This document shows positions 2,847-50,247 of a DNA stretch of 64,000 bases, one piece after another; position 1 is the first letter of the stretch, and each line of letters starts with the position of its first letter. The DNA is taken from contig NZ_CP037452.1 in the NCBI RefSeq assembly GCF_007754425.1, positions 4,563,164 to 4,627,163 of the forward strand. Reading direction: 5' to 3'. The DNA comes from Gimesia fumaroli. Lineage in GTDB: Bacteria > Planctomycetota > Planctomycetia > Planctomycetales > Planctomycetaceae. The notes beneath the pieces were generated by a model. That model saw only the letters and a list, made by a program, of their open reading frames with translations, was not told where the DNA came from and searched no databases. The position numbers and the translations under genes are program-made.

Positions 2847-4040
2847 CTAATTTTTTCGGCCCAATAACACAACAGACGTATCATCGTGTCTGCCAGATCC
2901 GTCTGTAAAAGCATTCGAATCGCGGAATAAATTGGACAACGCCGTCTCCAAATCATTTGACCGCGACTCCTGTAAAGAGTTCATAATGCCGGGGATTCCG
3001 AACTCGCCGAACGTCTCTTTTTCGCCGGGAAATGCTTCTGCCAGTCCATCAGTAAAAATCAGCAATCGGCTGTCGGCAGGCACAATGGAGGTATGAATGT
3101 CGTATTCGACATCAGGCACGATGCCCAGCGGGAGACCGCCGTCATCATTCGTTCCCAGTTCATACACTTTGTTGGTTTCCAGCTCGTGCACAATCGGAAT
3201 CGGCGCTCCGGCTGACGTCCATTGAAATTCATTCGTCCTGGCATTCAAGATCCCGTACAGCAGCGTTATGAAGCCACCATCATCATTCACAATTGCCTGG
3301 TTACACAAACGATTATTCACATCTGACACAAACGCCGCGGTATCCAGATACTTATTCGAACGGATCATGCCCACCAGGGTATGCATCGTCATAATCGACA
3401 TGCAGGCTTTCATCCCATGCCCCGATGCGTCTCCCACCAGCAACACCAGATTCTCATCGTCGAGCATGAACACATCATAATAGTCGCCCCCCGCAAGCGT
3501 CACAGGCTGACCGCCAAACACGCGAATCTGCGAAGACTCATAACGGGCCGTCACATCAAACCGATCGGGAGATTCCAGATCGCTGGGAATAATCGATTCC
3601 TGTAATTTCCGCACCGATTCGATTTCTTCACGCAGACGCTCTGCTACAAATCGCTCACGTTCGGCTTTGACGGAATCGACCACACTCTGCAGCGTGGTTT
3701 CCAGTAGGAACATAAAGTCGCCGCCTTCATCGCGGATGATATAAGCCCGCATGCCCGCGGTTAAAAAGCGAGCGACATGAAAGGTCCCCTGAGTCGGACA
3801 GGCCCCCACGATCGGCGTATCAAGATGCTTCTGGCGGATCTGTTCAAAATGATCAAACGCCGTCTGCGGATCAGGACTCATGATCGACATCAGAATGATG
3901 TCCCACGCGTTTTTCTCTAATGCCTGCTCCAGAAATTCTTCCGTCGTAGAACAGATGACTAAGTCATTCTCACTCACTCCCAGATAGAGAGAAATGAGAT
4001 CACACTCTTCGGGATTATCCCACCCGATCAGAATCCGCAT
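2847..4040 (-). CDS. SpoIIE-type PP2C phosphatase with N-terminal degenerate receiver domain
   Basis: The C-terminal half (from about residue 150) is a PP2C/SpoIIE phosphatase: GGDYYDVF and GDASGHGMKAC are the metal-binding motifs, and GLAEAFPG, FGE and HDDTSVVLLGR follow. The N-terminal ~120 residues fold like a response-regulator receiver (MRILIGWDN start, then DIILMSIMSPD). The position of the usual phospho-acceptor Asp reads Ser, so it may be a non-phosphorylated pseudo-receiver. A coiled linker (residues ~120-150) joins the two. The frame opens 48 bases earlier, but I chose the ATG at 4040 because the receiver strand begins there. Such proteins dephosphorylate anti-sigma-factor antagonists in partner-switching pathways; no partner lies nearby. 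Confidence 0.85.
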   Translation of the reverse strand: MRILIGWDNPEECDLISLYLGVSENDLVICSTTEEFLEQALEKNAWDIILMSIMSPDPQTAFDHFEQIRQKHLDTPIVGACPTQGTFHVARFLTAGMRAYIIRDEGGDFMFLLETTLQSVVDSVKAERERFVAERLREEIESVRKLQESIIPSDLESPDRFDVTARYESSQIRVFGGQPVTLAGGDYYDVFMLDDENLVLLVGDASGHGMKACMSIMTMHTLVGMIRSNKYLDTAAFVSDVNNRLCNQAIVNDDGGFITLLYGILNARTNEFQWTSAGAPIPIVHELETNKVYELGTNDDGGLPLGIVPDVEYDIHTSIVPADSRLLIFTDGLAEAFPGEKETFGEFGIPGIMNSLQESRSNDLETALSNLFRDSNAFTDGSGRHDDTSVVLLGRKN

Positions 4041-4557
4041 AGTTGGCCCCACAAATTCGAATTCATTGAATATTAACCCGCCCATCATATTAAATTTACA
4101 TGCGAATATCGACAGAAATCCCTCAGAATGATGCAGACAGATAGAGATACCCGTTCAGCGAACACAGAACTGAACAGTTTTTACTCCACTGAAGAAATCC
4201 GACTTGACGATCACGCGCGCATCGGCATGATCATGCGGAGATAACGTCGGGCGCGCGAGTGAGCACCACTGGTTCAGTTGTCGTTTTCAAAGCTCTGAAA
4301 AAATCAGCACCATAAAAGCCGCTTGTTTCAGCAAGATTTCCCAAACCACTACTTGCACGCACCTCAGTTATCAAACGATATCGCAACGCTTCGCTCCGCA
4401 TTCTCTGATCTTCATATAGGCATCCCTGACAGTCACAGGTCGTTCGCAAGCAAAATAAGCGTCTCCCCCTTGACGCCCCCACGCCACTGACAATGATGTT
4501 TTTCACAAACATGATTTGAGATCCCATAAACCGGGTAAGCTCGGATGCATATCCGGA

Positions 4558-4903
4558 CCGAGCGCAGCGAGCAGGAAGCCAACAGATCAAACAACGGTTA
4601 CAGATCACGAATCCATCCTCAAAAGTAGGGGCGTGCCCGATGTGACCGCCCGCCTGACGAGCCAATCAATGGCACAAGGTTGTGTGGCACTGTTGGCTTG
4701 CCAACAGTGATCAGTTCACCAACCAAAAAAGACATTCAGAAAACCCAGCATGCCTGTACCTCTGAGCGACTCGGCACTAGCCTTCGGTACGAACCTCCGC
4801 CGACACACAAACCACCGGCACCCCAATCCTACCAGATACCACCGGCAGCAACGCAGCTGAACCTGCCGTACTGAACGTGAATAAAACTCCCCTGATCCAG
4901 CCA
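4558..4903. repeat. Mosaic intergenic repeat, copy 1
   Basis: It contains recognisable modules that recur elsewhere. A CCGAGC...AGCGAGCAGGA block (4558-4575) recurs at 6087-6105. A block around 4628-4661 with GACCGCCCGCC recurs at about 8066-8096 and in weaker form at 33556-33593. A perfect palindrome sits at 4688-4709. A ~40-base block at 4821-4860 differs by one base from 8191-8230, and a diverged relative of it lies at about 34825-34890. The modules are non-coding and stay in intergenic DNA. Confidence 0.75.
4688..4709. repeat. 22-bp palindrome (hairpin module)
   Basis: CACTGTTGGC, two T, GCCAACAGTG: ten perfect base pairs around a two-base centre. One-mismatch and degenerate copies occur at 8370-8391 and about 6191-6214. 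The copies are always intergenic, which resembles a REP-like or small non-autonomous palindromic element. Confidence 0.7.
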
Positions 4904-6049: not shown

Positions 6050-6559
6050 TTGCTTCTGATAATCTGCACTCCACTTTTCAAAAGGGCCGAGCAAAGCGAG
6101 CAGGAGGTTTATAGGTCGACTCAAGAATCCAGAACAAGATTCCATACTAGAAGAATAACAATACGCTGTTAAATGGGTCCCTCAAATGTGGCATTGTTGG
6201 CTTGCCAATAGCGCTAAGTGAGCGTTCTCCAACCAGTGTCAGGAATCAAAAACAGGCCAAATTTCCCACGAATGAAAAGACCACTAGATGTTCTGTGAAT
6301 TTGTCTTTACGAATTGCTGATTCGGTATTGGAACCAAAGGACTGACACTTAACATTTTTAGGAAACACATAAAAACATGTGTCCACATCTTGATCATCCC
6401 CCCATATACGCTATGTTATATATTTCACCTACAATCGGGAGCCAGGTTGTTGAATTTCTATAAAAGAAGCAGCTTCCATGTTTTGTTCCTAAATTCTAAA
6501 GCTCAGTCACACATACGAACAAAGACTAGCTTGCTACTATTAAATGATGAGTCAAGCGG
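6050..6559. other. Intergenic region with repeat fragments, becoming AT-rich
   Basis: A CCGAGCAAAGCGAGCAGGA module (6087-6105) and a degenerate copy of the palindromic module (about 6191-6214) occupy the left half. The right half, 6290-6559, is clearly richer in A and T than the neighbours and leads into the metallophosphoesterase gene. No gene was found here. Confidence 0.6.
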
Positions 6560-8008
6560 ATGCAGCATTTTATAAACATCCTGCACCTTACGGATCTACA
6601 TATTGGTGGTGAGCGAACTGATATTGCACGCGCACAATTCAACAATGCAGTTGATGCACTTTATCATTGCTTGGAATCTATCAAGAATGAACCGCGAGGT
6701 GAAGCAGCAAACGACGACTGGCGACCTCAGATGATCGCTATATCAGGCGACATTGCGTATTCTGGTTCCATGGAAGAATTTCGAGATGCGGGTAAGTTAA
6801 TCAGCCGAATTTGTCAACTATTCAATCTTGACTCTAAAAGCGTAGTTCTCTGTCCAGGAAACCATGACCGAAATACGCGGAGAGTTAGCGGAATAACATA
6901 TCCCGGTTCTTCTCACGAGGCAGATGACTGGTTAGCTCCTGAAAACTTTGTGATCGACAAGAAAAATGACGCAGCCGCACCATTATCCATTCCCTTTCAG
7001 AATTTCTACAGATTTTGTGATTCTTCAAAGTTCCTCAAACCTGAAGGGTTGAGTGGACTTGAATATTTAACAGGAGTTTGTCAACCAAGTACTCAAAAGG
7101 GCTTAGACTTCATCGTTCTGAATTCATCCTGGTTTTGTAAGCCCAAAGGCAACGATATCCGAAATTTATGGCTTGGCTTACCGTTGTTGGAAAAAATGCA
7201 AAGCAGCAGGCAGATTACACGAACAGACGTCCTCACGGATCACCGAATTCGTATTGCTCTCGTCCATCATCCCAAGGATTGGTTAAACGAAGAAGAACAT
7301 GACACATACTCAAATCGACCTAACACTTTCAGATACTTGGCTGAACGATGTGATATCATTTTATCTGGACATGTTCATGGTGCCCTAGAACCTCCGACAC
7401 GTTCATATGATCGGGCTCTGGTATTTTCAGGCGGCGCAAGCTATGCCGGACACCGTTTTCGGAATAATTTTTCAATTATTCAGATTGACGTGGATGACTT
7501 AACTGTTCGTCGGCGTGGCTTCGAATATGACTCTCGCGAAACAGTCTGGATTGAAAGCGAACGTGCCAGAGGCATTTACCCCCTACGCAAAAAGTCGCCG
7601 CCAAATACACTCTTCCCAAATACAAAGGCTATCCAACTATCTGGCGAGTGGGAAAGTGACTTCTGGATCGAGGGGGCAAATGATCTGCGCAAACCAAGCC
7701 ATAGGCTGCAAATCGAGCAAAAAAAGCAAGGCAAGAAGATTTCTGTAACAGGAAAAGTAAAGACGGGTGATGAAGCACTCCGTTTCTCTTTTGATGGGTT
7801 TCTTAAAAATGGCTACATTACTGGGACATGGGAAGGACAAAGTCGTCCAAGCCCTCGCTATGGAGTTTTTCAGCTCAGAGTCGAAGAGAATCAACAGACT
7901 TTGAGCGGACGTTGGCTTGGTTTCAATCGAGATGGAACGATTAACGTTGGAAAGTGGAAGGCTGTGAAAATAAATCGAACCAGTAAGAAAAAATCATCCC
8001 CTTCCTGA
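6560..8008 (+). CDS. Calcineurin-like metallophosphoesterase with C-terminal beta domain
   Basis: A 482-residue protein. All metallophosphoesterase motifs are present in order: D-L-H (D12, H14), SGD (D64), GNHD (N101-D103), HHP near residue 235, and GHVHG near residue 271. This domain binds two metals and cleaves phosphoesters; the substrate may be nucleic acid, nucleotide or protein. Residues ~355-470 form a separate beta-rich domain with repeated G-x-W and I-x-G-x-W patterns, which I do not recognise. There is no signal peptide, so it is probably cytoplasmic. The gene is more AT-rich than its neighbours and lies between two repeat blocks, suggesting acquisition by transfer. The ribosome site is weak. 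Confidence 0.82.
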   Translation: MQHFINILHLTDLHIGGERTDIARAQFNNAVDALYHCLESIKNEPRGEAANDDWRPQMIAISGDIAYSGSMEEFRDAGKLISRICQLFNLDSKSVVLCPGNHDRNTRRVSGITYPGSSHEADDWLAPENFVIDKKNDAAAPLSIPFQNFYRFCDSSKFLKPEGLSGLEYLTGVCQPSTQKGLDFIVLNSSWFCKPKGNDIRNLWLGLPLLEKMQSSRQITRTDVLTDHRIRIALVHHPKDWLNEEEHDTYSNRPNTFRYLAERCDIILSGHVHGALEPPTRSYDRALVFSGGASYAGHRFRNNFSIIQIDVDDLTVRRRGFEYDSRETVWIESERARGIYPLRKKSPPNTLFPNTKAIQLSGEWESDFWIEGANDLRKPSHRLQIEQKKQGKKISVTGKVKTGDEALRFSFDGFLKNGYITGTWEGQSRPSPRYGVFQLRVEENQQTLSGRWLGFNRDGTINVGKWKAVKINRTSKKKSSPS

Positions 8009-8478
8009 CCTATTCACTCTCCTAAAAATGTCTATTTCATAAACATACTCACTTTCAGACATAGGGGCGGCCACCACATGTCCGCCCGCCAGGTGAATCG
8101 CAATCCCAGATCACCAATTAAATGGAACCAGAGCGGCCCACCCAAAAGTGAGCGGGTCGGCACTAGCTGCCGGGACACAACCCACCGCCCCCCCAATCCT
8201 ACCAGATACCACCGGCAGCAACGCAACTGAATATCCTACACTGATCACGCCCCCACCCTTAAGATAATCCAGGAATCCTGGATACGATGCGACTGTCGGA
8301 CAAACCGATCAGTGGCACACGGCAGGGAAAACCTACGAGGTTTGTTTTCATTTTCTGACGGTCCGGTGGCACTGGTGGCTTGCCAACAGTGAATGTGATG
8401 ACGCACGATTTTCACAATAAAATATGCTGGACCGGAGAAGCACGAGGTTCGTCTTTTTTCTCGCAGCAACCGCAACTG
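8009..8478. other. Intergenic repeat region
   Basis: Almost all of this gap is repeat sequence. A GTCCGCCCGCC module lies near 8066-8096, a CGGCACTAGC module near 8159, a ~40-base block at 8191-8230, and a palindrome at 8370-8391. No supported gene. Confidence 0.65.
8058..8395. repeat. Mosaic intergenic repeat, copy 2
   Basis: It shares with copy 1 (4558-4903) the order GTCCGCCCGCC module, CGGCACTAGC module, then the AATCCTACCAGATACCACCG block. The last is 39/40 identical over 8191-8230 versus 4821-4860. The palindrome (8370-8391, one mismatch) lies on the other side compared with copy 1, so the modules have been rearranged. Confidence 0.75.
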
Positions 8479-10899
8479 TCAATGCATCGAATCGAGCAGC
8501 ATGTAATATTTCAAATCGAAGTAGCCGGCGTCGGGTTGGCGATTCGAAAAATTCCAGTCGGTTAACCAGTCCAGCAGCGGCCAGAAGCCGGCCATGTTGC
8601 GGAGTGTGCCGAACTTCGTTTTCCAGGCAGTCCATTCCTCTGTAGTCGAAACGGCGTCGAGCTCTGTGAGAAACGCCGATGCGTCTTCGAGTTTCAGATC
8701 AATGATCAAATTGGGAAAGTCGCCGACGAGTCCGTGGTAGGCACTCACTGTATCCAGCTCGGGTTGCCGGGCGCCGTTTTCGTCGAACACGACGTTGTTA
8801 AAGGCATACGAACGATTCGCCACCAGCGAGTAGACGCGGCTTTCTTTTCCTTTGGTCAAACGCACAAACGTGTTGCTGGGCAAAAACCGTGTGAACGTGA
8901 GCTGGGTCCGCATGGTGAGCGTGGAGACAGCCGCTTCCCAGCCTGCGAAGTCGTCTATCGGATCGGACAATTTGACGTCCGGTTTCCTGCCGGGATTGAG
9001 CAGGTCGTGTGGGCCGCTGACCACTTCCGTGAAGCGGCGTTGAATCTTACCCAGCACACCTGAAATGGGGTCCGTCCCTTCTACCTCGAGCCCCTTGCCG
9101 ACGTTTTCGCCGGGAAACGGCATTCGGAACAGCAGTTCCTGACCGATGCCCCGTGTCCAGAGGTCACGATATCTCTGACGTTCATCCACAGGGAGCAACC
9201 GGAGAAAGTTGTCTTCAAACTCCTGCCGTAGCCGGCTCATGAATTCCCAGGTAGACAGCTTTTGTTCGACGCTGCCATAATATTCATAGTTGACCACCAG
9301 CGAGTAGTAAAGTCGCTCGAAGCCGCTGTAATCGATCAGCCAGAACGTGGGCGGAATCCCCCCCTGTCGTCCCCGCAGTACGGTCGCGTTGGTTTCATTG
9401 CGCAGAATGGTCAGCCAGGCGTTCGAGTTTTTCTGATTCCCGTCCCAGATGTCGTTGATCTCATAACCCGTCGGTTTGTATTTATCCAGCATCCGGTTAT
9501 AGGCATCGTTGTATTTGACATTGCCCGTGATGCCATACCCCATGAAATCATTCCACGACTGCAGACCGAGTTCCGGCTTCAATACGGACGGATCATGTGC
9601 GGGATCGACAAAAAAGACCCAGAAATTATCTTTAATGGCGTAAGTCGCCAGGTTCCCGACACAGACCGGCCCGCGAATCATGCCGCTGACGATCAGGTGA
9701 GAGTTCTCTACCATGAACAGGGCCCGCGACCGCGCAGGGATTGCCTGAAAGACTTCGAACGGGTTGTGACTGGCAAAGTCAGACTTCAGGCTCTTCCCGG
9801 GTACCGGTTCGACTTGAAAAAAAAGTTCGTCGAGGCGCTTCAGTTTAGAGTCGTTCAGCTTCCACAGGAACAGCGACTTCTGCACCCGAGATTCGGTCAC
9901 CTTTTTCAACCGGTAGTAAAACTGGTCGACTCCCTTGAGGTAAGGCGTGTCATAGGGTCGTGCCGTCTTGATCTCGTGAACCGGACTGGCTGTGACAACT
10001 TCTTTGCCGTCCTTGTCCGTCGTGACCTGAATCGGCGGCGTCGTGGAGCGGACCAGTCGGAAATACTCGCCTGGCGACTCGTCGAAATGCAACGTCGCCA
10101 GAAATGCATGTTCGAAAATAAACCGACTCACCAACGGCGACAGTGGAACATCCTGATTCAAAAACGCTTCCCAGCGAGCGATGACTTCCGGCTGTGCCAG
10201 TTTCCCGACCTCGGCCATCACACGTGCCGTCGGTCCCGGCGAACCGGCAGAGATCCACTCGGAAAAGAGTTGATTCTCCTCAGGCGACAGCGCGGGCATC
10301 GCGAACGGCATCCCCGCCTTCGGTCGCTGCTTCAAATAGTCGTCGATCCCCTGTTCGCACGGACAAACATGTTTGTTAATCGCCTGGTAAACCGGCTGTA
10401 CCGGCTTCAAACTAAAGGGAGGCTGGTTATGCTCGGTGCCAGCGACCAGCATCCGAAACAGAATACTCTTCGCGGGCCGCTCTGCCGACGGTCCTTCCTG
10501 TTCCACTACCGGACAAAACCCCTGCTCACGCCAGGCTGCTAAAGAAGGCTGGTCAGTCAGACGGACCGGCTTCTCGGCAAACAGATGTGTGCCATCCGGG
10601 TTCCCTTTCCGCGCACCGCGGAGTAAACCTTCGTAACAAGTGAGTTTGAGCAGACAGGGTGAATCGAGACAGCCATGACAGACAATACACCGTCGGTTAA
10701 ATATCGGCTGAATCTTATCGAGATAGAATTCACCATCGAGATCAGAGCCGGTTGTTTCCGGATACGCGGGTGGGACATAAACAAACGGCCCCCACGCTGA
10801 TTCAACGCGTGCTTCCTCCCAGAGCAGACTGCCGGCGATCGCACCCGCCACAACCAGAATGAGCAATCCAACAACCGCGTGGTGTACCTTGAGTTTCAA
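8479..10899 (-). CDS. cti: Fatty acid cis/trans isomerase
   Basis: An 806-residue protein with an N-terminal membrane anchor or signal (residues 9-27) and a single heme-c site, C71-I-V-C-H75, as in Cti of Pseudomonas and Vibrio. Long family-typical segments follow, such as GVDQFYYRLKKVTESRVQ and LYYSLVVNYEYYG. Cti is a periplasmic enzyme that converts cis double bonds of membrane phospholipids to trans under solvent or heat stress. Length and domain order agree with the family. It stands alone on the minus strand between two intergenic regions. The gene is well known in gammaproteobacteria and less expected here. Confidence 0.88.
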   Translation of the reverse strand: MKLKVHHAVVGLLILVVAGAIAGSLLWEEARVESAWGPFVYVPPAYPETTGSDLDGEFYLDKIQPIFNRRCIVCHGCLDSPCLLKLTCYEGLLRGARKGNPDGTHLFAEKPVRLTDQPSLAAWREQGFCPVVEQEGPSAERPAKSILFRMLVAGTEHNQPPFSLKPVQPVYQAINKHVCPCEQGIDDYLKQRPKAGMPFAMPALSPEENQLFSEWISAGSPGPTARVMAEVGKLAQPEVIARWEAFLNQDVPLSPLVSRFIFEHAFLATLHFDESPGEYFRLVRSTTPPIQVTTDKDGKEVVTASPVHEIKTARPYDTPYLKGVDQFYYRLKKVTESRVQKSLFLWKLNDSKLKRLDELFFQVEPVPGKSLKSDFASHNPFEVFQAIPARSRALFMVENSHLIVSGMIRGPVCVGNLATYAIKDNFWVFFVDPAHDPSVLKPELGLQSWNDFMGYGITGNVKYNDAYNRMLDKYKPTGYEINDIWDGNQKNSNAWLTILRNETNATVLRGRQGGIPPTFWLIDYSGFERLYYSLVVNYEYYGSVEQKLSTWEFMSRLRQEFEDNFLRLLPVDERQRYRDLWTRGIGQELLFRMPFPGENVGKGLEVEGTDPISGVLGKIQRRFTEVVSGPHDLLNPGRKPDVKLSDPIDDFAGWEAAVSTLTMRTQLTFTRFLPSNTFVRLTKGKESRVYSLVANRSYAFNNVVFDENGARQPELDTVSAYHGLVGDFPNLIIDLKLEDASAFLTELDAVSTTEEWTAWKTKFGTLRNMAGFWPLLDWLTDWNFSNRQPDAGYFDLKYYMLLDSMH

Positions 10900-33351: not shown

Positions 33352-33658
33352 AAATCGTCTTTAAATCGTCAGTGAATATTCTTATGAAAAGGGCACATGC
33401 ACGAGGGTAAAGGAAATTCTGAATCGTTCTGGGAAGATCGTTTACCAGTGCATCACTGATTATAGGCACTTATTCACGGATTCACCAGTTGACTGAAAAT
33501 GCGCACCTTTAGATCGATTCACAAAATAAGATCATAAATTCAGCCACAAAATGTGTAGGGTGAGGGCCCCATGTGTCCGCTCGCCCAGGTAGTGTTTCTT
33601 AATTTGAACTATCCATTGAAATGTTGATGAACCAGGGCGAATGCCCTTCGACTAATTA
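33352..33658. other. Intergenic region ending at an IS insertion
   Basis: No gene is visible. A diverged copy of the GTCCGCTCGCCCAGG repeat module lies at 33556-33593. The right edge is the TA duplication (33657-33658) of the IS copy. With the IS removed, the target reads GACTAATTAGTC, a perfect 12-base palindrome. Confidence 0.55.
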
Positions 33659-34585
33659 GAAGTGGTTTCATAACTTATTAAGTAAGGTGAACACGCACGC
33701 GAGTTGTGCGAATCCTAAAAACAAATGACTGTATCTTTCATACCGTACTACCAGGCGACGAAAGTTGAACAACCAACTGATGGTGCGTTCGACTTTCCAA
33801 CGGCGTTGATATCGCCGCAATGCACGCCCATCCTGCGTCGCTGGTTTTACACGGTTCTTGCGATGCGGACAGATCAGCTCTATCTTCCGTTCCGCCAATT
33901 GTGTGCGCAGGGGATCGCTGTCGGCCGCACGATCATAAATCAGGCGATCAGGGTCGCGTGGCAAAATGCGCTGGTCCAGCAGGGACTCAATCAACTTCAC
34001 CTCTGCCGGCGAGGCACTGGTACGATCCAGAGCGAGAGGGAGTCCGTTCCCGTCGACCAGCAGCATAAGCTTGGTTCCCTTTCCCCGTTTTGTCTTGCCG
34101 ACATCGGCGCCCCTTTTTTTGCAGGGCAAAATGTGCCATCCCCGAACGCTTCCGACCAGACTACCAGCTTCCGGCGATCGAGGTGTTCGAGTAATCGCTG
34201 CCACGCTTCCAGGAACACACCGTCTTCGGTCCATTCCTTGAAACGACGCCAGCAGGTGCTGGGCGATGGTAAAAATGTTGGTAAATCTTTCCATCGGGCA
34301 CCAGTCCTTAATACCCAAAGGATTCCTTCGAGGCACTCGCGGGCAGCCACTCTGGGCCGCCCTCCGGCTGCGTTTGCCGGTGGTTCTGGAAACAGATCTT
34401 TGATCAGAAGCCATTGCTCGTCCGAGAGTTGTGGTTTTGGTTCCGTCCTGGACCCGGTTATGTTGCGACCTGTGGCAGGTCGGGACACGCGGGTCATGGT
34501 CATAATGAGACCTCCTTTCTGGGGAGGTACTCTTACAAATACTATACCAAACTGTTCACGTAATTTTGGGTTTTGAAACTACCTC
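33659..34585 (-). mobile_element. IS5/IS427-like insertion sequence, copy A (927 bp)
   Basis: The boundaries follow from comparison with the second copy. The terminal inverted repeats (GAGGTAGTTTCAAAAC at the 5' end versus GAAGTGGTTTCATAAC at the 3' end) match at 13 of 16 bases. A TA duplication flanks the element (33657-33658 and 34586-34587). It sits in intergenic, repeat-rich DNA and breaks no gene. All reading frames within it are identical to those of copy B at 48764-49690, which lies in the opposite orientation. Confidence 0.9.
33668..34503 (-). CDS. IS5-family transposase, made by -1 ribosomal frameshift (copy A)
   Basis: Two overlapping frames (34503-33997 and, shifted by -1, to 33668) join at seven A residues, which are T on the plus strand at 34114-34120. 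The zero frame reads GCA AAA AAA GGG, a canonical slippery site. The fused product is 278 residues. The DDE residues are the Asp of FGDGTF, the Asp of IYDRAADSD and the Glu of KVERTISWL. An N-terminal domain (DEQWLLIKDLFPEP, GRPR) is typical of IS427-group transposases. Without the shift, a 168-residue protein lacking two catalytic residues results. The enzyme cuts and rejoins the element at TA sites. Confidence 0.88.
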
Positions 34586-35039
34586 TAGTCATTCCGGCTG
34601 GCAAATTACTTAAAAACAAGATCAGCCGCACGGCGTAAGCCGCGGTTAATACCAATTTAGGTGAGGTTACGATCTTGAGAATCACACTCATAACCATTAA
34701 ATAAACTACCAGACGAAGTTCTTTCCCAAAACCCGATTGGAATGTAACCAGAAATCAACATCAAACACCAATGCAGACCGACCTCTGAGTAGCACAACAC
34801 CAGACGCCGTTTCAAACCGGAACAAATCACCAACGGCAACAAAGCTGAACATGCCGTAGCGAGTGTGAAACACTCCCCTCAAAATCAAACCCACGTCCCG
34901 TTATTAGCCCAAATGGGAATTCCGGGGTTCATACATTGGTAGAAAGCTTGGAAAGTCAGTATGGATTACTTACGATAGTAACTGCACCTTTTGTCTATGT
35001 TGCACAGACGTCCCGAAAGACTCTCGATCGGATTTAGAA
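34586..35039. other. Intergenic region with diverged repeat copy
   Basis: Next to the IS, a CGGCGTAAGCCGCGGTTAA module lies at about 34627-34645. At 34825-34890 there is a diverged version of the AATCACCAACGGCAACAAAG block found at 4838-4900 and 8207-8231, continuing into ACTCCCCT as in copy 1. No gene is supported before 35040. Confidence 0.5.
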
Positions 35040-40798: not shown

Positions 40799-41959
40799 TT
40801 ATGCCCTTCGTTTATTCAGAACGAAATAGCCAATGATCAGAAGAATGAGTATTCCATTTAAAATCAACAGCCATCGCATTCCCGACCCATTCTTGAAGTA
40901 CAATCCACCTGTATTTTTCAGTGCATCGACTTTAGGAACAACCTTGCCATCCAGCCATGCGTATTGTAAGTGTTGCGCATCCTGCATTGAAACTCCCAGA
41001 CCGTTCGGTACTTTAGCCTGAAATTCAAAATCGTTGTCAGAAAAATCATCCAGGTGAATATCTGACAGAGTCACTTCAGCGATCAAAGTAGACGAGGGAA
41101 TATTAATACTATCTTCCCCTTCGTCAGAATTATCTTTGGTCATGATAACAATCGCTCCATCAACGATTCGAATCCCCTGAGGGAGCTTATGCTGCTGATC
41201 AAAAGTTTCAACTTTGCATTCATATTTCACAGGCAACCAGAGTCCGGCTTGCTCGGTAGACTGCTCCACGGTGTACACCATTGATTTCAAAGTTTTGTTT
41301 TCCCCGGGTTTCGTTCGCGTAAAAGAAATCTGTTCCGGCATGCCTCCTTTCGATGACGTCGCAAGACGAATATTTAAGCGGTACGCTTCCGTCTTACATG
41401 TCAACTCAGTCACGCCGTGAGACTGCTTTACTTCAGTCTGATCGAGAAGTAAATCCGGAATTGACAGGTATTGATTTCCATCCTGCAGATAGCCAAACAC
41501 AGGCGCCAGATACCCCCAGCCAACAGATTCTTTCCACAGAGATTTCGAAGGTTCAAGATAGCCGATGAATGACTCGGCTGTATTAGTGTCTCGTTTCACT
41601 CCAATAGAATAATAGAGATCAGTCCCCAGCACGGTTTCAGAGAAAACGGAAGCCGGTTTTAGCTGATCCGGTTTTTGTGCATCTCCGTTCATCTTTGTGA
41701 CGACGTTCCAGACCCGCTTCTGATCAAAATCGATTTTCCATTTCTGCGAGATCACATTGGTAAACACATCTCCGTCATCAGCAACTCGATCCCGATTCTG
41801 GTTGGTAAAAGAAATCTGATGAATCTGATCTAAATAGTTTTGATAGAGACGCCGAGCGGTCGAAGTTGTACTATCACCCTCTGCGGAATACGACATTGTG
41901 GTTACGCAAAACAGAATTAAAAATACAAGTACTTTTACTTGCGTTTCTGTATATTTCAT
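40799..41959 (-). CDS. Secreted, C-terminally membrane-anchored hypothetical protein
   Basis: A 386-residue protein with a signal peptide (ends MSYSAEG) and a C-terminal transmembrane helix followed by a basic end (about residues 360-386, ending NKRRA). Between them lies a beta-rich region that may be LolA-like, with a DFEFQAKVPNGLGVSMQDA segment of a kind recurring in planctomycete secreted proteins. No enzyme motif is seen. It lies downstream of the cysteine-rich peptide genes on the same strand but after their terminator, so it is probably transcribed separately. A role with them is only suggested by closeness. Confidence 0.65.
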   Translation of the reverse strand: MKYTETQVKVLVFLILFCVTTMSYSAEGDSTTSTARRLYQNYLDQIHQISFTNQNRDRVADDGDVFTNVISQKWKIDFDQKRVWNVVTKMNGDAQKPDQLKPASVFSETVLGTDLYYSIGVKRDTNTAESFIGYLEPSKSLWKESVGWGYLAPVFGYLQDGNQYLSIPDLLLDQTEVKQSHGVTELTCKTEAYRLNIRLATSSKGGMPEQISFTRTKPGENKTLKSMVYTVEQSTEQAGLWLPVKYECKVETFDQQHKLPQGIRIVDGAIVIMTKDNSDEGEDSINIPSSTLIAEVTLSDIHLDDFSDNDFEFQAKVPNGLGVSMQDAQHLQYAWLDGKVVPKVDALKNTGGLYFKNGSGMRWLLILNGILILLIIGYFVLNKRRA

Positions 41960-42157
41960 CTATATCCCCATACAACAAAGGTCAGCTTGCGAGAAGAAAA
42001 ATATAATTCCAGACAGAGGACTGTCAGAGAGTCATCGTCATAAAAAGCTCACAAAAATTATGGTTTCACCACGGCTGACCAGAAAAATAATGCACGAATC
42101 CCGATAAAACGTGGAATTGTATATGATCCAGAAATGATGCCCTGAAAAGATACACTT

Positions 42158-42206
42158 AAAAAACACGACTCGTCCTTATCAAAGTGAATAAGGAGAATCG
42201 TGCTTT
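42158..42206 (-). terminator. Rho-independent terminator of the cysteine-rich peptide operon
   Basis: On the minus strand, a stem of about 15 base pairs (ATAAGGA and ATCGTG arms at 42188-42202 pairing with 42164-42179, small bulges) has a loop of about 8 bases and is followed by six T (A at 42158-42163). It closes the transcript 54 bases after the second peptide gene and separates it from the gene at 40799-41959. Confidence 0.8.
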
Positions 42207-42259
42207 TATTTGTGTAACCTCAAACAAATTGATGTACTCAAAACATCATACAACAATGA

Positions 42260-42598
42260 TTAACCGCCTCCGCCACAACCATTTTTAGTCAACTTGGTCG
42301 TGTTTAAAGTTGCGGGACATTGTGCATCACCAGTACAATTTCCTGATGAGATTAAGCCCCCCGCTGGCTGGTGACTTCCATTATTCCCACCGATGTGCAC
42401 CGCTGAAAAAAAGTTTCCCCCAGTACAATGGGAAGGAACGCCAAGGTTGCAAGGCGTACTCTGGTAACCGCTATAGCTACACGCGGCACCTTTAACAGAC
42501 CTGGCCGACACCTGCTCTGCCGAGTCTACTCGTGGCCCCTGGAACAGGGCAATTGTCAGTGCAACAACAGCACCAACACCAAATAAATTTCGTTTCAT
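42260..42598 (-). CDS. Secreted six-cysteine peptide A ending in GCGGGG
   Basis: A 112-residue protein. The signal-type N-terminus (KRNLFGVGAVVALTIALFQ) is followed by GPRVDSAEQVSARSVKGAAC, probably a leader or processing region. The mature part has six Cys, in GAAC, TPC, SHC, GNC, AQC and GCG contexts, and ends GCGGGG. Length, Cys spacing at the end and the leader are shared with the paralogue at 42805-43143. AAGGACTG precedes the ATG in both. It is probably exported and disulfide-bonded. The neighbouring C39-like peptidase and MauE-like redox protein are the likely maturation factors. Family not recognised; the pattern recalls NVEALA-type peptides of Bacteroidetes. Confidence 0.75.
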   Translation of the reverse strand: MKRNLFGVGAVVALTIALFQGPRVDSAEQVSARSVKGAACSYSGYQSTPCNLGVPSHCTGGNFFSAVHIGGNNGSHQPAGGLISSGNCTGDAQCPATLNTTKLTKNGCGGGG

Positions 42599-42804
42599 GG
42601 GAATTCAGTCCTTTTTAATCAAAACTGAGAATCGTCCGTAAAATACCAACATGATATTTTATTCTAAAAAGAAGAGTCACTGATTTATCTCACTTTAGAT
42701 TTTCCACAACCTCTCTCGCTCTGATTCGACAATCAAAAAGACAGAGGACAGAGCACCTTCAAAAGAACCCGTTTTTACTGATTCTCTCCTGGTGAAATAA
42801 ACTA

Positions 42805-43143
42805 TTAACCTCCACCACCACAACCTTCTGTCGAAAGTCGATCTGTACTTAAGGCCGCGGGGCATTGTGCATTACCGGTGCAGTTTCCGTCTGCATGAAC
42901 TCCATCCACTACTTTGTGACTCCCCGCGGTCCCCTTGGCGGATGAAACAGCGGATTCAGACTGCCCTGCGGTACAAGCCGGAACAATATCGCAATCTATA
43001 TTTGTGTATCCATCATGATCACAAGCAGCCGCTCCTTTGGCAGACATCGCCAACACCTGTTCTGCCGAATCGACCTGCGGCCCCTGAAACAGGCCAATCG
43101 TCATCATGATCATCGCACCTATGCCAACTAATAATTTTTTCAT
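42805..43143 (-). CDS. Secreted six-cysteine peptide B ending in GCGGGG
   Basis: A 112-residue paralogue of the protein at 42260-42598. The N-terminal hydrophobic segment (KKLLVGIGAMIMMTIGLFQG) leads into PQVDSAEQVLAMSAKGAAAC. Six cysteines occur in AAAC, IDC, PAC, GNC, AQC and GCG contexts, and the C-terminus is again GCGGGG. The core between the third and fourth Cys is variable while the ends are conserved, as expected for peptides with a common processing system and diversified function. AAGGACTG lies before the ATG. It is 106 bases downstream of the MauE-like gene and in the same direction. Confidence 0.75.
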   Translation of the reverse strand: MKKLLVGIGAMIMMTIGLFQGPQVDSAEQVLAMSAKGAAACDHDGYTNIDCDIVPACTAGQSESAVSSAKGTAGSHKVVDGVHADGNCTGNAQCPAALSTDRLSTEGCGGGG

Positions 43144-43249
43144 GAAAATACAGTCCTTTAAAAAGTGACAACTTAAAATATTCTTCCTTGAAACCTTTAT
43201 GTGATCTTTCTATTTAAAAAGAGTTCACACGTTTCTCTGTTTCAATTAG

Positions 43250-43750
43250 TCAATGATTAGCCTGGAACTGTGCTGTTCTTCCCATCCACCAATACACGAG
43301 CATCCAAGACATCGATAACAAAAGTAGCCCACCGACCAGTGAAATTGTGGAAAGATCAATTGCCGTACTCTGGCGCGGCCCAAAGCAGCCACACGAAATA
43401 TCTAACCCTCTGATCTTCACCGAAATTTGAACGAGGGTGAATACCATGAGCATCAGCAGAGTAATCACATGCGCAGCGAAATGAAAAAAACGAAAGATAA
43501 GACAAGCCGCTAAAACCAACTGCAGGAAGGGAAGTACCATCGCAGTAAATTGTGCCATCACTGGGGGAATCAATTCGTATCGATAGACGGAACCAAGAAA
43601 ATAATAAGGGTTTCCCAGATGTGGCAATCCACTGAGAATCAAGAACCCTCCCAGCACCCAGGAAACCACGCTGTCAAATAACAGGAACCGCTCATCGGGT
43701 TCGATAAGGTGCATCTCGTCAGTCAAGTTCATCGTGGCATCAGACATCAT
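43250..43750 (-). CDS. MauE/DoxX-like redox membrane protein
   Basis: A 166-residue protein with four or five membrane helices (about 25-45, 65-85, 90-113, 130-155). The ISCGCFG motif near residue 120, between helices, is the Cys-x-Cys signature of MauE-like membrane proteins thought to pass electrons to periplasmic disulfide chemistry. Family members support disulfide formation or TlpA/MauD-like oxidoreductases. It lies 12 bases after the C39/rhodanese gene and before the two cysteine-rich peptides, so a role in oxidising or isomerising their cysteines is a reasonable inference. Confidence 0.8.
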   Translation of the reverse strand: MMSDATMNLTDEMHLIEPDERFLLFDSVVSWVLGGFLILSGLPHLGNPYYFLGSVYRYELIPPVMAQFTAMVLPFLQLVLAACLIFRFFHFAAHVITLLMLMVFTLVQISVKIRGLDISCGCFGPRQSTAIDLSTISLVGGLLLLSMSWMLVYWWMGRTAQFQANH

Positions 43751-43762
43751 TGCGAACTTTCC

Positions 43763-44992
43763 TCATTCTTGTGCTATTCTGCTACCTTCAGGAATGTGGT
43801 TTTGACTCCACTCGCGATAACCGCCGCGAAACACAGCAACATTTTTGAAATCATTGAATTCTAGAAATTGAGCAATCTCATCGGCAAAACCGCATCCGGA
43901 ACTTTGACAATACACGATAATGCGTTTTGTCCTGGGAACGCCTGCTAAAACCTGCTGACGATCATGCAATGCGGAATTGATCGGAATACTCTTCGCGTTT
44001 GGTAAAGTACCCCGTTGAAAATCGATTGCATAACGTGCATCCAACACCAATGGTTCCCCTTCCAAAATTTCCTTCTCGGTCTCTGCAAGGGTTAATTTGG
44101 GGATCTTCGAAGAATGATAGCGAATTGTCACTTCCGCCAAAGCAGTCGAATTGTTTAAAAAGCCAATTTCAGATGCGGCGTGGTACCCCAGGCTTAGAAG
44201 TAAGGAAAATCCGAAGATAATGCCCATTTGCCAAAGGAGGCTTACTTTTTTCGAATTGATTTTCAACCTGACAATCGAAAAAGAATTGCTGAAGCATCTC
44301 GCTAAGAAATAGACAGCAAAGGTGAGTAAGCCTAATCCCAAAAAGATTTCGACTCGCGATTCATATAAAAAGCCATGTGTCAGCTTTTCTTTTGAAATGG
44401 CAATTGCGGTTCCATCCCACTTTGAAAGCAGTTCAGCGATTGACATCGTTTGTAATGGAAGTGGCGCATCGACAATGCGAACACGATCTCCTTCAAATCC
44501 AAGGAAAGCAATCCAGTGATTAAAATTCTTGTCTGCCCGATTTCCCTGCACATGCAGAATCATTGGAGTTTGAATTCGCCTGAGATCTCGGTGCGTCAAA
44601 TGGGACAAACTTTCTGCGTGCGCACCAAAATCTCTGGTTGCATCAATGAGTTCTTTCGCACTACTGCCTTCAAATGAGCCGATATATCTGGTCTTGATGT
44701 AGTCTGCCGGATTCGTCTCGATTCCCAAAGCAGTCAGACACGCGTAAAGACTGTTGACACCGCAATAAGGACCTCGAATCCGATTGTCAGTCAACGCCGG
44801 CAATTGATCCTCTGCCTGCTGTTCGTTCTGCAAGGGTAAACGTTGAGCGGTTTGATGATTGTCACCATTGACTGGTTGAAACTCATCTGCATAGGTCGAG
44901 GGACAGGTACTCCCCACCTCTAGAATAAAGCAGAATACGAGAAAGAGATTCGTACTCTGAAACGAAAAAATGAAAGTGTTCCCTGGCATCAT
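43763..44992 (-). CDS. C39-like peptidase / rhodanese membrane fusion protein
   Basis: A 409-residue protein. Residues 8-27 are a signal or anchor. Residues ~66-210 resemble the C39 cysteine peptidase (bacteriocin leader peptidase): GPYCGVNSLYACL with C77, NHWIAFLG with H159 and RIVDAP with D175. Two membrane helices follow (~216-233, 252-275). Residues ~297-405 are a rhodanese domain: LVLDAR, YCQSSGCG with catalytic C362, and VAVFRGGYREW. C39 domains usually cut leaders of exported peptides but are normally fused to an ABC transporter; here the partner is a sulfur-transfer domain. It is first in an apparent operon with the MauE-like and peptide genes. ATGs at 44992 and 44989 are equally possible starts. 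Confidence 0.82.
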   Translation of the reverse strand: MMPGNTFIFSFQSTNLFLVFCFILEVGSTCPSTYADEFQPVNGDNHQTAQRLPLQNEQQAEDQLPALTDNRIRGPYCGVNSLYACLTALGIETNPADYIKTRYIGSFEGSSAKELIDATRDFGAHAESLSHLTHRDLRRIQTPMILHVQGNRADKNFNHWIAFLGFEGDRVRIVDAPLPLQTMSIAELLSKWDGTAIAISKEKLTHGFLYESRVEIFLGLGLLTFAVYFLARCFSNSFSIVRLKINSKKVSLLWQMGIIFGFSLLLSLGYHAASEIGFLNNSTALAEVTIRYHSSKIPKLTLAETEKEILEGEPLVLDARYAIDFQRGTLPNAKSIPINSALHDRQQVLAGVPRTKRIIVYCQSSGCGFADEIAQFLEFNDFKNVAVFRGGYREWSQNHIPEGSRIAQE

Positions 44993-48572: not shown

Positions 48573-48763
48573 TCTTCTGAGAGAGACTTTCTCAGGTCTT
48601 TCTATTTACCGATAAAATACTTAAAAGAAGGCAGTCAGGTTCCCATTACCTGCCTGCCTCATTTTTCTCAACAGCTTTTGTGTTGTCAAACTCTCTGATC
48701 GTTTTCCACAATTCTTTACTTAAGGCCACGATCACTTCATCATCCAGATCTTTCAAATGGGTA

Positions 48764-49690
48764 GAGGTAGTTTCAAAACCCAAAATTACGTGAACAGTTT
48801 GGTATAGTATTTGTAAGAGTACCTCCCCAGAAAGGAGGTCTCATTATGACCATGACCCGCGTGTCCCGACCTGCCACAGGTCGCAACATAACCGGGTCCA
48901 GGACGGAACCAAAACCACAACTCTCGGACGAGCAATGGCTTCTGATCAAAGATCTGTTTCCAGAACCACCGGCAAACGCAGCCGGAGGGCGGCCCAGAGT
49001 GGCTGCCCGCGAGTGCCTCGAAGGAATCCTTTGGGTATTAAGGACTGGTGCCCGATGGAAAGATTTACCAACATTTTTACCATCGCCCAGCACCTGCTGG
49101 CGTCGTTTCAAGGAATGGACCGAAGACGGTGTGTTCCTGGAAGCGTGGCAGCGATTACTCGAACACCTCGATCGCCGGAAGCTGGTAGTCTGGTCGGAAG
49201 CGTTCGGGGATGGCACATTTTGCCCTGCAAAAAAAGGGGCGCCGATGTCGGCAAGACAAAACGGGGAAAGGGAACCAAGCTTATGCTGCTGGTCGACGGG
49301 AACGGACTCCCTCTCGCTCTGGATCGTACCAGTGCCTCGCCGGCAGAGGTGAAGTTGATTGAGTCCCTGCTGGACCAGCGCATTTTGCCACGCGACCCTG
49401 ATCGCCTGATTTATGATCGTGCGGCCGACAGCGATCCCCTGCGCACACAATTGGCGGAACGGAAGATAGAGCTGATCTGTCCGCATCGCAAGAACCGTGT
49501 AAAACCAGCGACGCAGGATGGGCGTGCATTGCGGCGATATCAACGCCGTTGGAAAGTCGAACGCACCATCAGTTGGTTGTTCAACTTTCGTCGCCTGGTA
49601 GTACGGTATGAAAGATACAGTCATTTGTTTTTAGGATTCGCACAACTCGCGTGCGTGTTCACCTTACTTAATAAGTTATGAAACCACTTC
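48764..49690 (+). mobile_element. IS5/IS427-like insertion sequence, copy B (927 bp)
   Basis: Identical in its frames to copy A, in the opposite orientation. The TA duplication (48762-48763 and 49691-49692) is confirmed by restoring the interrupted gene. The leader holds ACCTCC (48821-48826), which can pair with the ribosome site GGAGGT (48834-48839). This can hide the start on transcripts entering from outside, a device known in other IS elements. Confidence 0.92.
48846..49681 (+). CDS. IS5-family transposase, made by -1 ribosomal frameshift (copy B)
   Basis: Upstream frame 48846-49352 and downstream frame (to 49681) overlap. The slip site is seven A at 49229-49235 in the zero-frame context GCA AAA AAA GGG. 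A short GCCG...CGGC stem at 49240-49251 lies about five bases after the slip site and may stimulate shifting. The fusion is 278 residues (130 plus 148) with the DDE residues in FGDGTF, IYDRAADSD and KVERTISWL. The AAAGGAGGT ribosome site is strong but can be closed by a hairpin. Confidence 0.88.
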
Positions 49691-50247
49691 TAGTCATTGT
49701 CTCACCGCTCACACGGAGCCAAAGTCCCTTTTCGAAACGGTTCTTTCTTAATTCAGAGATCTTTTGACGTGGAAACTTATAGAATGTCTCATCGCCAGAT
49801 TCACGCGATACCAGATTCATCCGAAACTGGTCTGCATCAATTTCGAAGACCGCCCGAGGAGGAACCTCAAACTTGAATATTGCATTGGCAATCGAGCTAC
49901 CAATGATCCACATTGGAACCAGGATCAGCGCCAACAAGTCCATATGAGCCAATCCTGAAGGAATTGGTTCGTAAGGTAAAGGCATTGGTATGATCAGAAA
50001 ACACGGTCCTTTTTCCTGAGTTTATTAAAATTGGGATTCGTCACTTCACATCGAAACGTTTTCCTGCCAAGTGAGTCATCACTTCGCTTAGTCTTCATCT
50101 ATGTCATCCTTCGCCTACTCTCTAAACAAGATACTCCAGATAACTCTCAGCTTATTGAACGGAAAACCCTTTCATTCGGATCATATGAAAATCGATTATA
50201 TTGGCATTCCTGTCCAAGTAGAAAAAGCAAGACCCGACTTCATTCGA

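Follow-up and report, generated by a model that had tools for sequence, protein, structure and literature searches.

What does a double-glycine-type C39 protease do when it is fused to a rhodanese and encoded next to cysteine-rich peptides? The question is raised by a locus of the planctomycete Gimesia fumaroli, whose 7.7 Mb genome is a single contig. We analysed a stretch of 64,000 nucleotides (NZ_CP037452.1, positions 4,563,164 to 4,627,163 of the forward strand), hereafter the window. It encodes a membrane-bound C39-rhodanese protein, termed C39R, a MauE-type redox membrane protein and two small secreted peptides, P1 and P2. We propose that these genes constitute a maturation line which works in the periplasm on small, Cys-rich secreted peptides, and assign this reading as a whole a probability of roughly 0.6. 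It builds on features which are read from the sequences, i.e., the gene set, the C39 triad, a GG/GA site, a conserved leader with a variable core in the P2 group, and the topology signals. In the following, L-numbers denote loci and G-numbers genomes; core loci are the window and 16 relatives.

The four open reading frames (ORFs) are all located on the minus strand in the order C39R, MauE, P1 and P2, with spacings of 12, 106 and 206 bases. An earlier reading of the DNA letters, the sequence-only reading, had listed four genes in one direction, a C39-rhodanese fusion, a MauE protein with a C-x-C motif and two secreted paralogues with six cysteines each. All of this is borne out by ORF coordinates, Pfam matches and alignment (P1 and P2 are identical in 62 of 110 aligned residues). 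The Rho-independent terminator it had placed behind P2 is recovered as a stem-loop with a U run; its fold has -28.5 kcal/mol and a z of -7.6 against 200 shuffles. A mechanical scan for terminators passed over this stem. A comparable stem-loop (z -3.7) is positioned ahead of the same downstream gene in G024, the sole relative checked.

C39R starts with a signal or anchor helix (aa 6-24), followed by the C39 domain, two transmembrane (TM) helices and the C-terminal rhodanese. Pfam gives only C39 and rhodanese in the 409 aa; a fused ATP-binding cassette (ABC) transporter is absent. The C39 triad, Cys77, His159 and Asp175, is invariant in 15 of 15 aligned proteins, and these columns align to PCAT1. 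A 19-row C39 profile reaches PCAT1 at 7.6e-15. When the C39 half of the AlphaFold model was searched with Foldseek, the best matches were the protease domains of PCAT1, LahT150 and ComA (the whole model has a predicted local distance difference test score, pLDDT, of 71.5 and a predicted template modelling score of 0.46). The loop between the TM helices of the window protein has four Lys/Arg within its last twelve residues. Both enzyme domains are therefore predicted to reside outside of the cytoplasm.

Such a location has a precedent. FapD of the Pseudomonas Fap system is a Sec-exported periplasmic C39 protease which is needed for amyloid secretion and requires its active-site Cys (PMC5557850, available in part). 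Like FapD, C39R combines a C39 domain with a Sec signal and would work in the periplasm, is not part of an ABC transporter and belongs to an exported small-protein system for which GG/GA sites are discussed (PMC5557850, same portion). Unlike those of C39R, FapD substrates are amyloid, not Cys-rich, and the available portion of PMC5557850 mentions neither a rhodanese nor MauE; it leaves the FapD target unclear, whereas the precursors of the C39R loci carry a recognisable site. Judged by topology alone, C39R would qualify as a FapD-like periplasmic C39 protein.

The precursors themselves belong to no described family. P1 and P2 have no Pfam or NCBIfam match at E up to 1, and ten related precursors have none above cut-off. 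The parallel to the NVEALA-type loci of Bacteroidetes, drawn by the sequence-only reading, finds no footing here; Pfam holds an NVEALA model, and the word is absent from the literature searched. We used a pattern consisting of a start codon, a hydrophobic helix, G-G or G-A, a Cys at most 8 residues on, at least 4 Cys and a tail of 35-130. Seven loci in which precursors had been recognised by eye served to shape it, and it then detected a precursor in 6 of the 9 others. The pattern was run on the window, the 16 relative loci and 16 other loci. In the window it detects P1 and P2 and nothing else. Among the relatives, L033 has three matching paralogues in tandem, and in each of 12 other loci a single ORF next to the block fits the pattern; six of these ORFs had not been spotted before. 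A Cys-rich precursor is thus present at 15 of 16 loci with readable flanks (L171 included); L046 is cut off upstream. For comparison, 400 kb of control DNA (20 regions of 20 kb from seven genomes, with no C39 match) contain 3 matches, and the 16 other loci (52 kb) a single one, beside a C39-only gene. Allowing a longer tail adds one far match to the core loci, in L036. The same locus has a short secreted ORF (L036:4096-4512, minus strand) which is very rich in C-x-C and C-x2-C, metal-binding in look and unlike the precursors.

Common to the precursors is a site of the double-glycine type behind a Sec-type helix; it is mostly V-x-G[GA] and closely precedes the first Cys. In many divergent precursors the leader ends in V-x-G-G, e.g., VSGG, VIGG, VEGG or VDGG. 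A hydrophobic residue (V, I, L, M or F) occupies position -4 in 22 of 37 candidates compared with 6 at -5 and 4 at -6, a count which includes a few doubtful entries (L161 and the second of L157, each the start of the C39 gene itself, and L054 with a TTG start). In the structure of LahT150 with a leader, V-4, L-7 and L-12 fill the groove, and LahT150-type leaders end in GG, GA or GS (PMC6363468, available in part). The likeness to the PCAT/AMS systems LahT, ComA and PCAT1 comprises the C39 fold, the Cys-His-Asp triad, the GG/GA leader end and the hydrophobic -4 residue (PMC6363468, same portion). The difference is that C39R has no ABC transporter and is predicted to face the periplasm, and that the leader carries a Sec-type helix. 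That the locus cuts its peptides, as had been claimed, is well supported by the fold match to double-glycine proteases and by the match of site and enzyme at 15 loci; the cut itself is what we infer from them.

How widely is the gene set kept? C39-rhodanese proteins are present in 15 of 170 family genomes including that of the window (in G142 cut by a contig end, in G011 split between frames). Beyond these, searches of 392 phylum genomes yielded G521, which belongs to another family, and, with a profile, the distant genome G499 with two copies; a single-sequence C39R search of named genomes yielded no relative. The 17 core loci are the window and 16 others, two of which derive from G119. The C39R of one close relative is 92% identical to that of the window; the other 15 loci are divergent. 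The sequence-only reading had staked its case on the joint occurrence of C39R, MauE and Cys-rich peptides, and this is what we find. By six-frame profile search, a MauE gene is adjacent to C39R at 17 of 17 loci (in L045 in two frames) as well as in both G499 copies, and the precursors accompany it as counted above. The first MauE and D386 profiles (for D386 see below) were built from mostly the same rows; when each row was left out in turn together with its near copies, MauE was still found in 14 of 14 rows, at worst with 3.6e-30. Because the set is kept in the window, in a close relative and in 15 divergent loci, and because the peptide pattern matches only 3 times in 400 kb of control, the arrangement is not due to chance. 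L171, a second contig of the L036 metagenome-assembled genome, encodes the first 95 residues of C39R, upstream of which lie D386 and a precursor; should L171 not be the missing half of L036 but a copy of its own, L036 is not informative.

In the P2-type group 33-35 of 38 leader residues are identical as against 27-42 of 66-72 in the core. P2 shares 35 of 38 leader and 28 of 66 core residues with the third G024 paralogue, and 33 of 38 and 42 of 72 with the second. The corresponding nonsynonymous divergence (dN) is 0.037-0.062 for leaders versus 0.35-0.62 for cores; between window and G024 it is 0.024 for MauE, 0.036 for C39R and 0.123 for D386. Synonymous divergence is saturated in several pairs. 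The P1/P2 family is found in 2 of 170 family genomes. To judge from these comparisons, the precursors turn over fast and the machinery is kept, and the P2-type precursors have the conserved leader and variable core of bacteriocins and other ribosomally synthesized and post-translationally modified peptides (RiPPs).

Cys-rich protein walls have been described for planctomycetes. P1, P2 and their relatives could be structural surface or wall subunits which are cut and disulfide cross-linked outside of the cell, similar to such walls or to a fibre processed by FapD, the precedent for this view (PMC5557850, in part). The neighbourhood of several loci would suit surface products. PMT_2 glycosyltransferase genes are located downstream in L038, L040 and L041; L045 has a GT2 gene as a neighbour. 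In 6 of 16 loci (L035, L039, L045, L046, L047 and L048) the block has a prepilin-type ORF of the same strand as its immediate neighbour, a possible link to secretion or display; in all, there are 7 such ORFs in 229 kb of core loci versus 6 in the 400 kb control, a higher density than the control would lead one to expect. On the other hand, a core wall part is expected to be broadly kept, and the patchy occurrence of both C39R and the peptide family together with the fast change of the cores argues against it. Further, a literature search on planctomycete Cys-rich walls returned nothing on such walls, as far as titles and the beginnings of abstracts tell. We consider structural subunits unlikely, though worth keeping in mind.

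Next, the redox half of the line. Cys362 and Cys367 of the rhodanese, the C-x4-C pair, are invariant in 15 of 15 aligned proteins, as are C120, G121 and C122 of MauE in 14 of 14. In the window's own genome the MauE profile has just one further match, a weak one (9.3e-7). At 1e-3 the rhodanese and MauE profiles both match 17 of 17 core loci and 0 of 28 C39-only loci; in a separate run one C39-only locus, L159, gave a weak MauE match of 1.6e-4. Both partial sets exist: C39 loci which lack a rhodanese, and C39-free pairs of rhodanese and MauE. Of five TM-rhodanese loci examined in other planctomycete families (L092-L096), four have MauE overlapping or adjoining the rhodanese gene (L092-L095), and none has C39. 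The idea that these rhodanese-only matches are unrelated proteins was dropped in view of the MauE neighbour in 4 of 5. Rhodanese and MauE are thus a pair in their own right. C39R resembles this rhodanese with a C39 protease joined to it, and the pairing favours a thiol relay between rhodanese and MauE. In L038 (6527-7777) a MauE domain and a GT2 glycosyltransferase share one open frame downstream of C39R, followed by the PMT_2 gene.

MauE has been speculated to serve disulfide formation in candidate RiPP clusters of Streptomyces, computationally predicted by decRiPPter, in which MauE, with or without MauD, accompanies precursors with at least 8 Cys (PMC7794033, available in part). The likeness is MauE beside Cys-rich precursors; the difference is that the available portion of PMC7794033 mentions no C39 protease, rhodanese or double-glycine leader for these clusters. 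A C39-rhodanese fusion is reported neither for them nor for FapD in the portions of both papers at hand. With methylamine dehydrogenase maturation the locus shares the MauE membrane family and its speculated disulfide role; it differs by a rhodanese partner in place of MauD and by its substrate. From MauE and the invariant rhodanese C-x4-C we infer disulfide formation, and the earlier claim that the locus oxidises its peptides stands at this level. The step draws on the speculated role of MauE (PMC7794033, same portion), the Cys-rich cores and the coupling of rhodanese and MauE.

Alternatively, the rhodanese might be a true sulfurtransferase which places a persulfide or another sulfur modification on core Cys, while MauE recycles thiols and a sulfur-modified peptide is released. 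Its catalytic Cys is invariant, and sequence and fold matches of the rhodanese half include sulfurtransferases and persulfide reductases. Yet the second invariant Cys suits a dithiol relay, the role speculated for MauE is in disulfides (PMC7794033, in part), and nothing in our analysis points to a sulfur donor. We regard a sulfurtransferase as rather improbable.

The set is larger than the four genes of the sequence-only reading, which missed D386, a secreted protein. A D386 homologue adjoins C39R in 16 of 17 loci (in L046 and L047 in part only; the 17th, L036, starts at a contig end). With leave-one-out profiles D386 is found in 15 of 15 rows, at 1e-43 to 1.2e-6. In the 400 kb control the best match is always the same ORF, L102:5782-7023, with 3.8e-8 to 3.8e-4. 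For L040 this control ORF slightly beats the locus's own gene, and for L048 it is only about tenfold worse; in these two cases position and build carry the argument. The ORF itself (plus strand) lies in the window's own genome in a region without C39 match, and is D386-like at 6.6e-8 with the window pair left out. Accordingly, the D386 family has members outside of C39R loci. Among 15 members scanned there is no Pfam family at E 0.03 or better, and the search for a PDB relative returned none, one chain scoring E 0.5. A likeness to LolA was dropped, no test being behind the idea. By position and profile we count D386 as part of the gene set.

Taken together, the line would operate as follows. 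Sec would export P1 and P2, and the N-terminal hydrophobic helix would keep the precursors membrane-held. The sequence-only reading had the locus export its peptides; export probably falls to Sec and not to the locus itself, and that interpretation as a whole is partly supported. The membrane-anchored C39 domain, facing the periplasm, would recognise the leader and cut after G-A or G-G just before the first Cys, which would set free a six-Cys core of some 74 residues. The rhodanese C-x4-C and the MauE C-G-C would then act as a thiol relay which puts disulfides into the core. The rhodanese would take the place held in methylamine dehydrogenase maturation by MauD, a thioredoxin-like protein. As a guess, D386 would handle the precursor, holding it or passing it on at the membrane. 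Most likely the released peptide acts outside of the cell, bacteriocin-like or as a surface peptide; this is the least certain step.

Several observations weigh against this maturation line. The flanks of L048 are complete, yet no scan, looser rules included, detects a peptide there, and both G499 copies have C39R and MauE with neither a recognised precursor nor D386. The rhodanese-MauE pairs without C39 demonstrate that MauE alone need not signal Cys-rich peptides. At the site, position -7 is not clearly enriched, the window precursors end in G-A, and P1 has Ala at -4. The contrast between leader and core is weak in the P1 pair (30 of 38 vs 52 of 74 identical). D386 lies beyond the terminator-like stem-loop after P2, plain BLAST from the window protein sees just 6 of 16 homologues, and the pLDDT of its predicted structure is only 45.6. 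Finally, a conserved Gln upstream of Cys77, where the oxyanion Gln of ComA-type C39 proteases is positioned, is not seen in the C39R alignment, although in the LahT150 structure this Gln is 4.3 Å away from the oxygen (PMC6363468, in part). That C39R serves quality control, or is a general protease and redox protein of the envelope, with the peptides as unrelated neighbours, as L048, the G499 loci and the C39-free pairs might suggest, is very improbable in view of a peptide kept at 15 of 16 readable loci in divergent genomes, 3 pattern matches per 400 kb elsewhere, and the C39-type site in the peptides.

Is the periplasmic maturation line confined to C39R? A C39-domain profile matches 91 rows in 55 of 170 family genomes. 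We examined 28 C39-only loci, i.e., 8 loci and 20 hand-picked from the 91 rows. The scan finds a precursor near C39 in 5 of the 8 and 10 of the 20 (one false match removed from 11), a rough count in view of the three doubtful entries named above; L056 and L162 have Cys-rich ORFs which the scan missed. Two C39-only matches elsewhere in the phylum (G442, G174) have no precursor by scan. Several C39-only loci encode, as judged by eye, a tail-anchored protein of some 390 aa, and either a small C39 protein or a C39-DUF1573 fusion (L152, by Pfam). The DUF1573 profile matches 10 of 28 C39-only loci, 4 of which had gone into the profile, and a single one of the 17 core loci (L043). Many of these non-ABC loci of the same family thus share with the C39R loci a Sec-type, GG-containing Cys-rich precursor, the tail-anchored protein and C39; they differ by DUF1573, present in some of them, and by the lack of rhodanese and MauE.

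The locus is one branch of a larger class, and for that class we found no description in the literature searched; nor is there one for the planctomycete set of C39R, MauE and peptides in that literature, which covered few subscription papers. Tentatively, and with somewhat less than even odds, we suggest that planctomycetes possess a large class of Cys-rich peptides with double-glycine leaders, which are exported by Sec and processed in the periplasm by non-ABC C39 proteases. One branch of the class would have its protease fused to a C-x4-C rhodanese which replaces thioredoxin as the MauE partner, and one membrane machine would both remove the leader and form disulfides or persulfides. It is usually beside ABC transporters that double-glycine peptides are looked for; here the protease fold, fused to a rhodanese and paired with MauE, appears to act on Sec-exported precursors at the outer face of the membrane. 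If true, the loosely understood MauE redox family would gain a defined substrate and a partner, and planctomycetes would offer many candidates for peptide natural products or surface proteins which ABC-linked cluster mining would miss.

Table 1. Coordinates of the features discussed; positions without a locus label refer to the window.
Feature	Position	Strand	Basis
C39R gene, 409 aa	43763-44992	-	Pfam Peptidase_C39 9e-9 and Rhodanese 2.2e-12
C39R, C39 double-glycine-type peptidase domain, aa 77-202	44387-44764	-	Pfam, profile to PCAT1, Foldseek
C39R, two TM helices and short positively charged loop, aa 216-268	44189-44347	-	Hydropathy, K/R count
C39R, rhodanese domain with C-x4-C active loop, aa 304-397	43802-44083	-	Pfam, alignment
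MauE-type redox membrane protein, 166 aa, four hydrophobic helices	43250-43750	-	Pfam MauE 2.9e-21, hydropathy
MauE C-G-C, aa 120-122	43385-43393	-	Alignment
P1 precursor peptide, 112 aa, six-Cys core	42805-43143	-	Pattern scan
P1 leader (predicted), ends K-G-A	43030-43143	-	Leader/core split
P2 precursor peptide, 112 aa, six-Cys core	42260-42598	-	Pattern scan
P2 leader (predicted), ends K-G-A	42485-42598	-	Leader/core split
Intrinsic terminator-like stem-loop with U run after P2	42159-42207	-	Fold of 42150-42215
D386, secreted protein, C-terminal TM and R-R tail, fifth member of the set	40799-41959	-	Homologues in other loci
Promoter-like site before D386	42000-42027	-	10/12 consensus matches; weak, shuffles give as many
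Rhodanese-MauE pairs without C39, four other planctomycete families	L092:9-1075, L093:6262-7322, L094:7345-8305, L095:1257-2984
Genes of L148	4988-5470, 5516-6013, 5935-7224, 7352-7903, 8007-9017

The window genome possesses a second C39 locus, L148 (G000:C1:2424000-2440000), which is of the DUF1573 kind and has no rhodanese or MauE match. It comprises two Cys-rich GG precursors in tandem, with 13 and 12 Cys, a tail-anchored protein, a small C39 protein and a DUF1573 protein. L155, one of the 20 hand-picked loci and from the same genus as the window, encodes basic peptides with a GG leader (EE..PEEA..V.GG; 3944-4228 and 4467-4733) and a C39 protein of 755 aa, i.e., of exporter size (6392-8659); apparently this is an ordinary double-glycine export locus. 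In G499 the two copies of the C39-rhodanese and MauE pair (L088:7413-9067, L089:7108-8765) resemble each other and are located behind proteins of about 800 aa, with weak TPR-like matches in L088.

Five stretches of 14-20 kb, taken from four genomes of the genus, were searched for an empty site. Nothing in them matches window 40.4-45.4 kb; the flanks are arranged unlike those of the window, and there is no clean site. Two inverted copies of an insertion sequence (IS), 99.8% identical, flank the locus (window 33657-34593 and 48756-49692). A composite transposon was considered and rejected: the syntenic stretch of G024 lacks the IS, which therefore looks like a later insertion. Five near-identical copies of it are present in the window genome.

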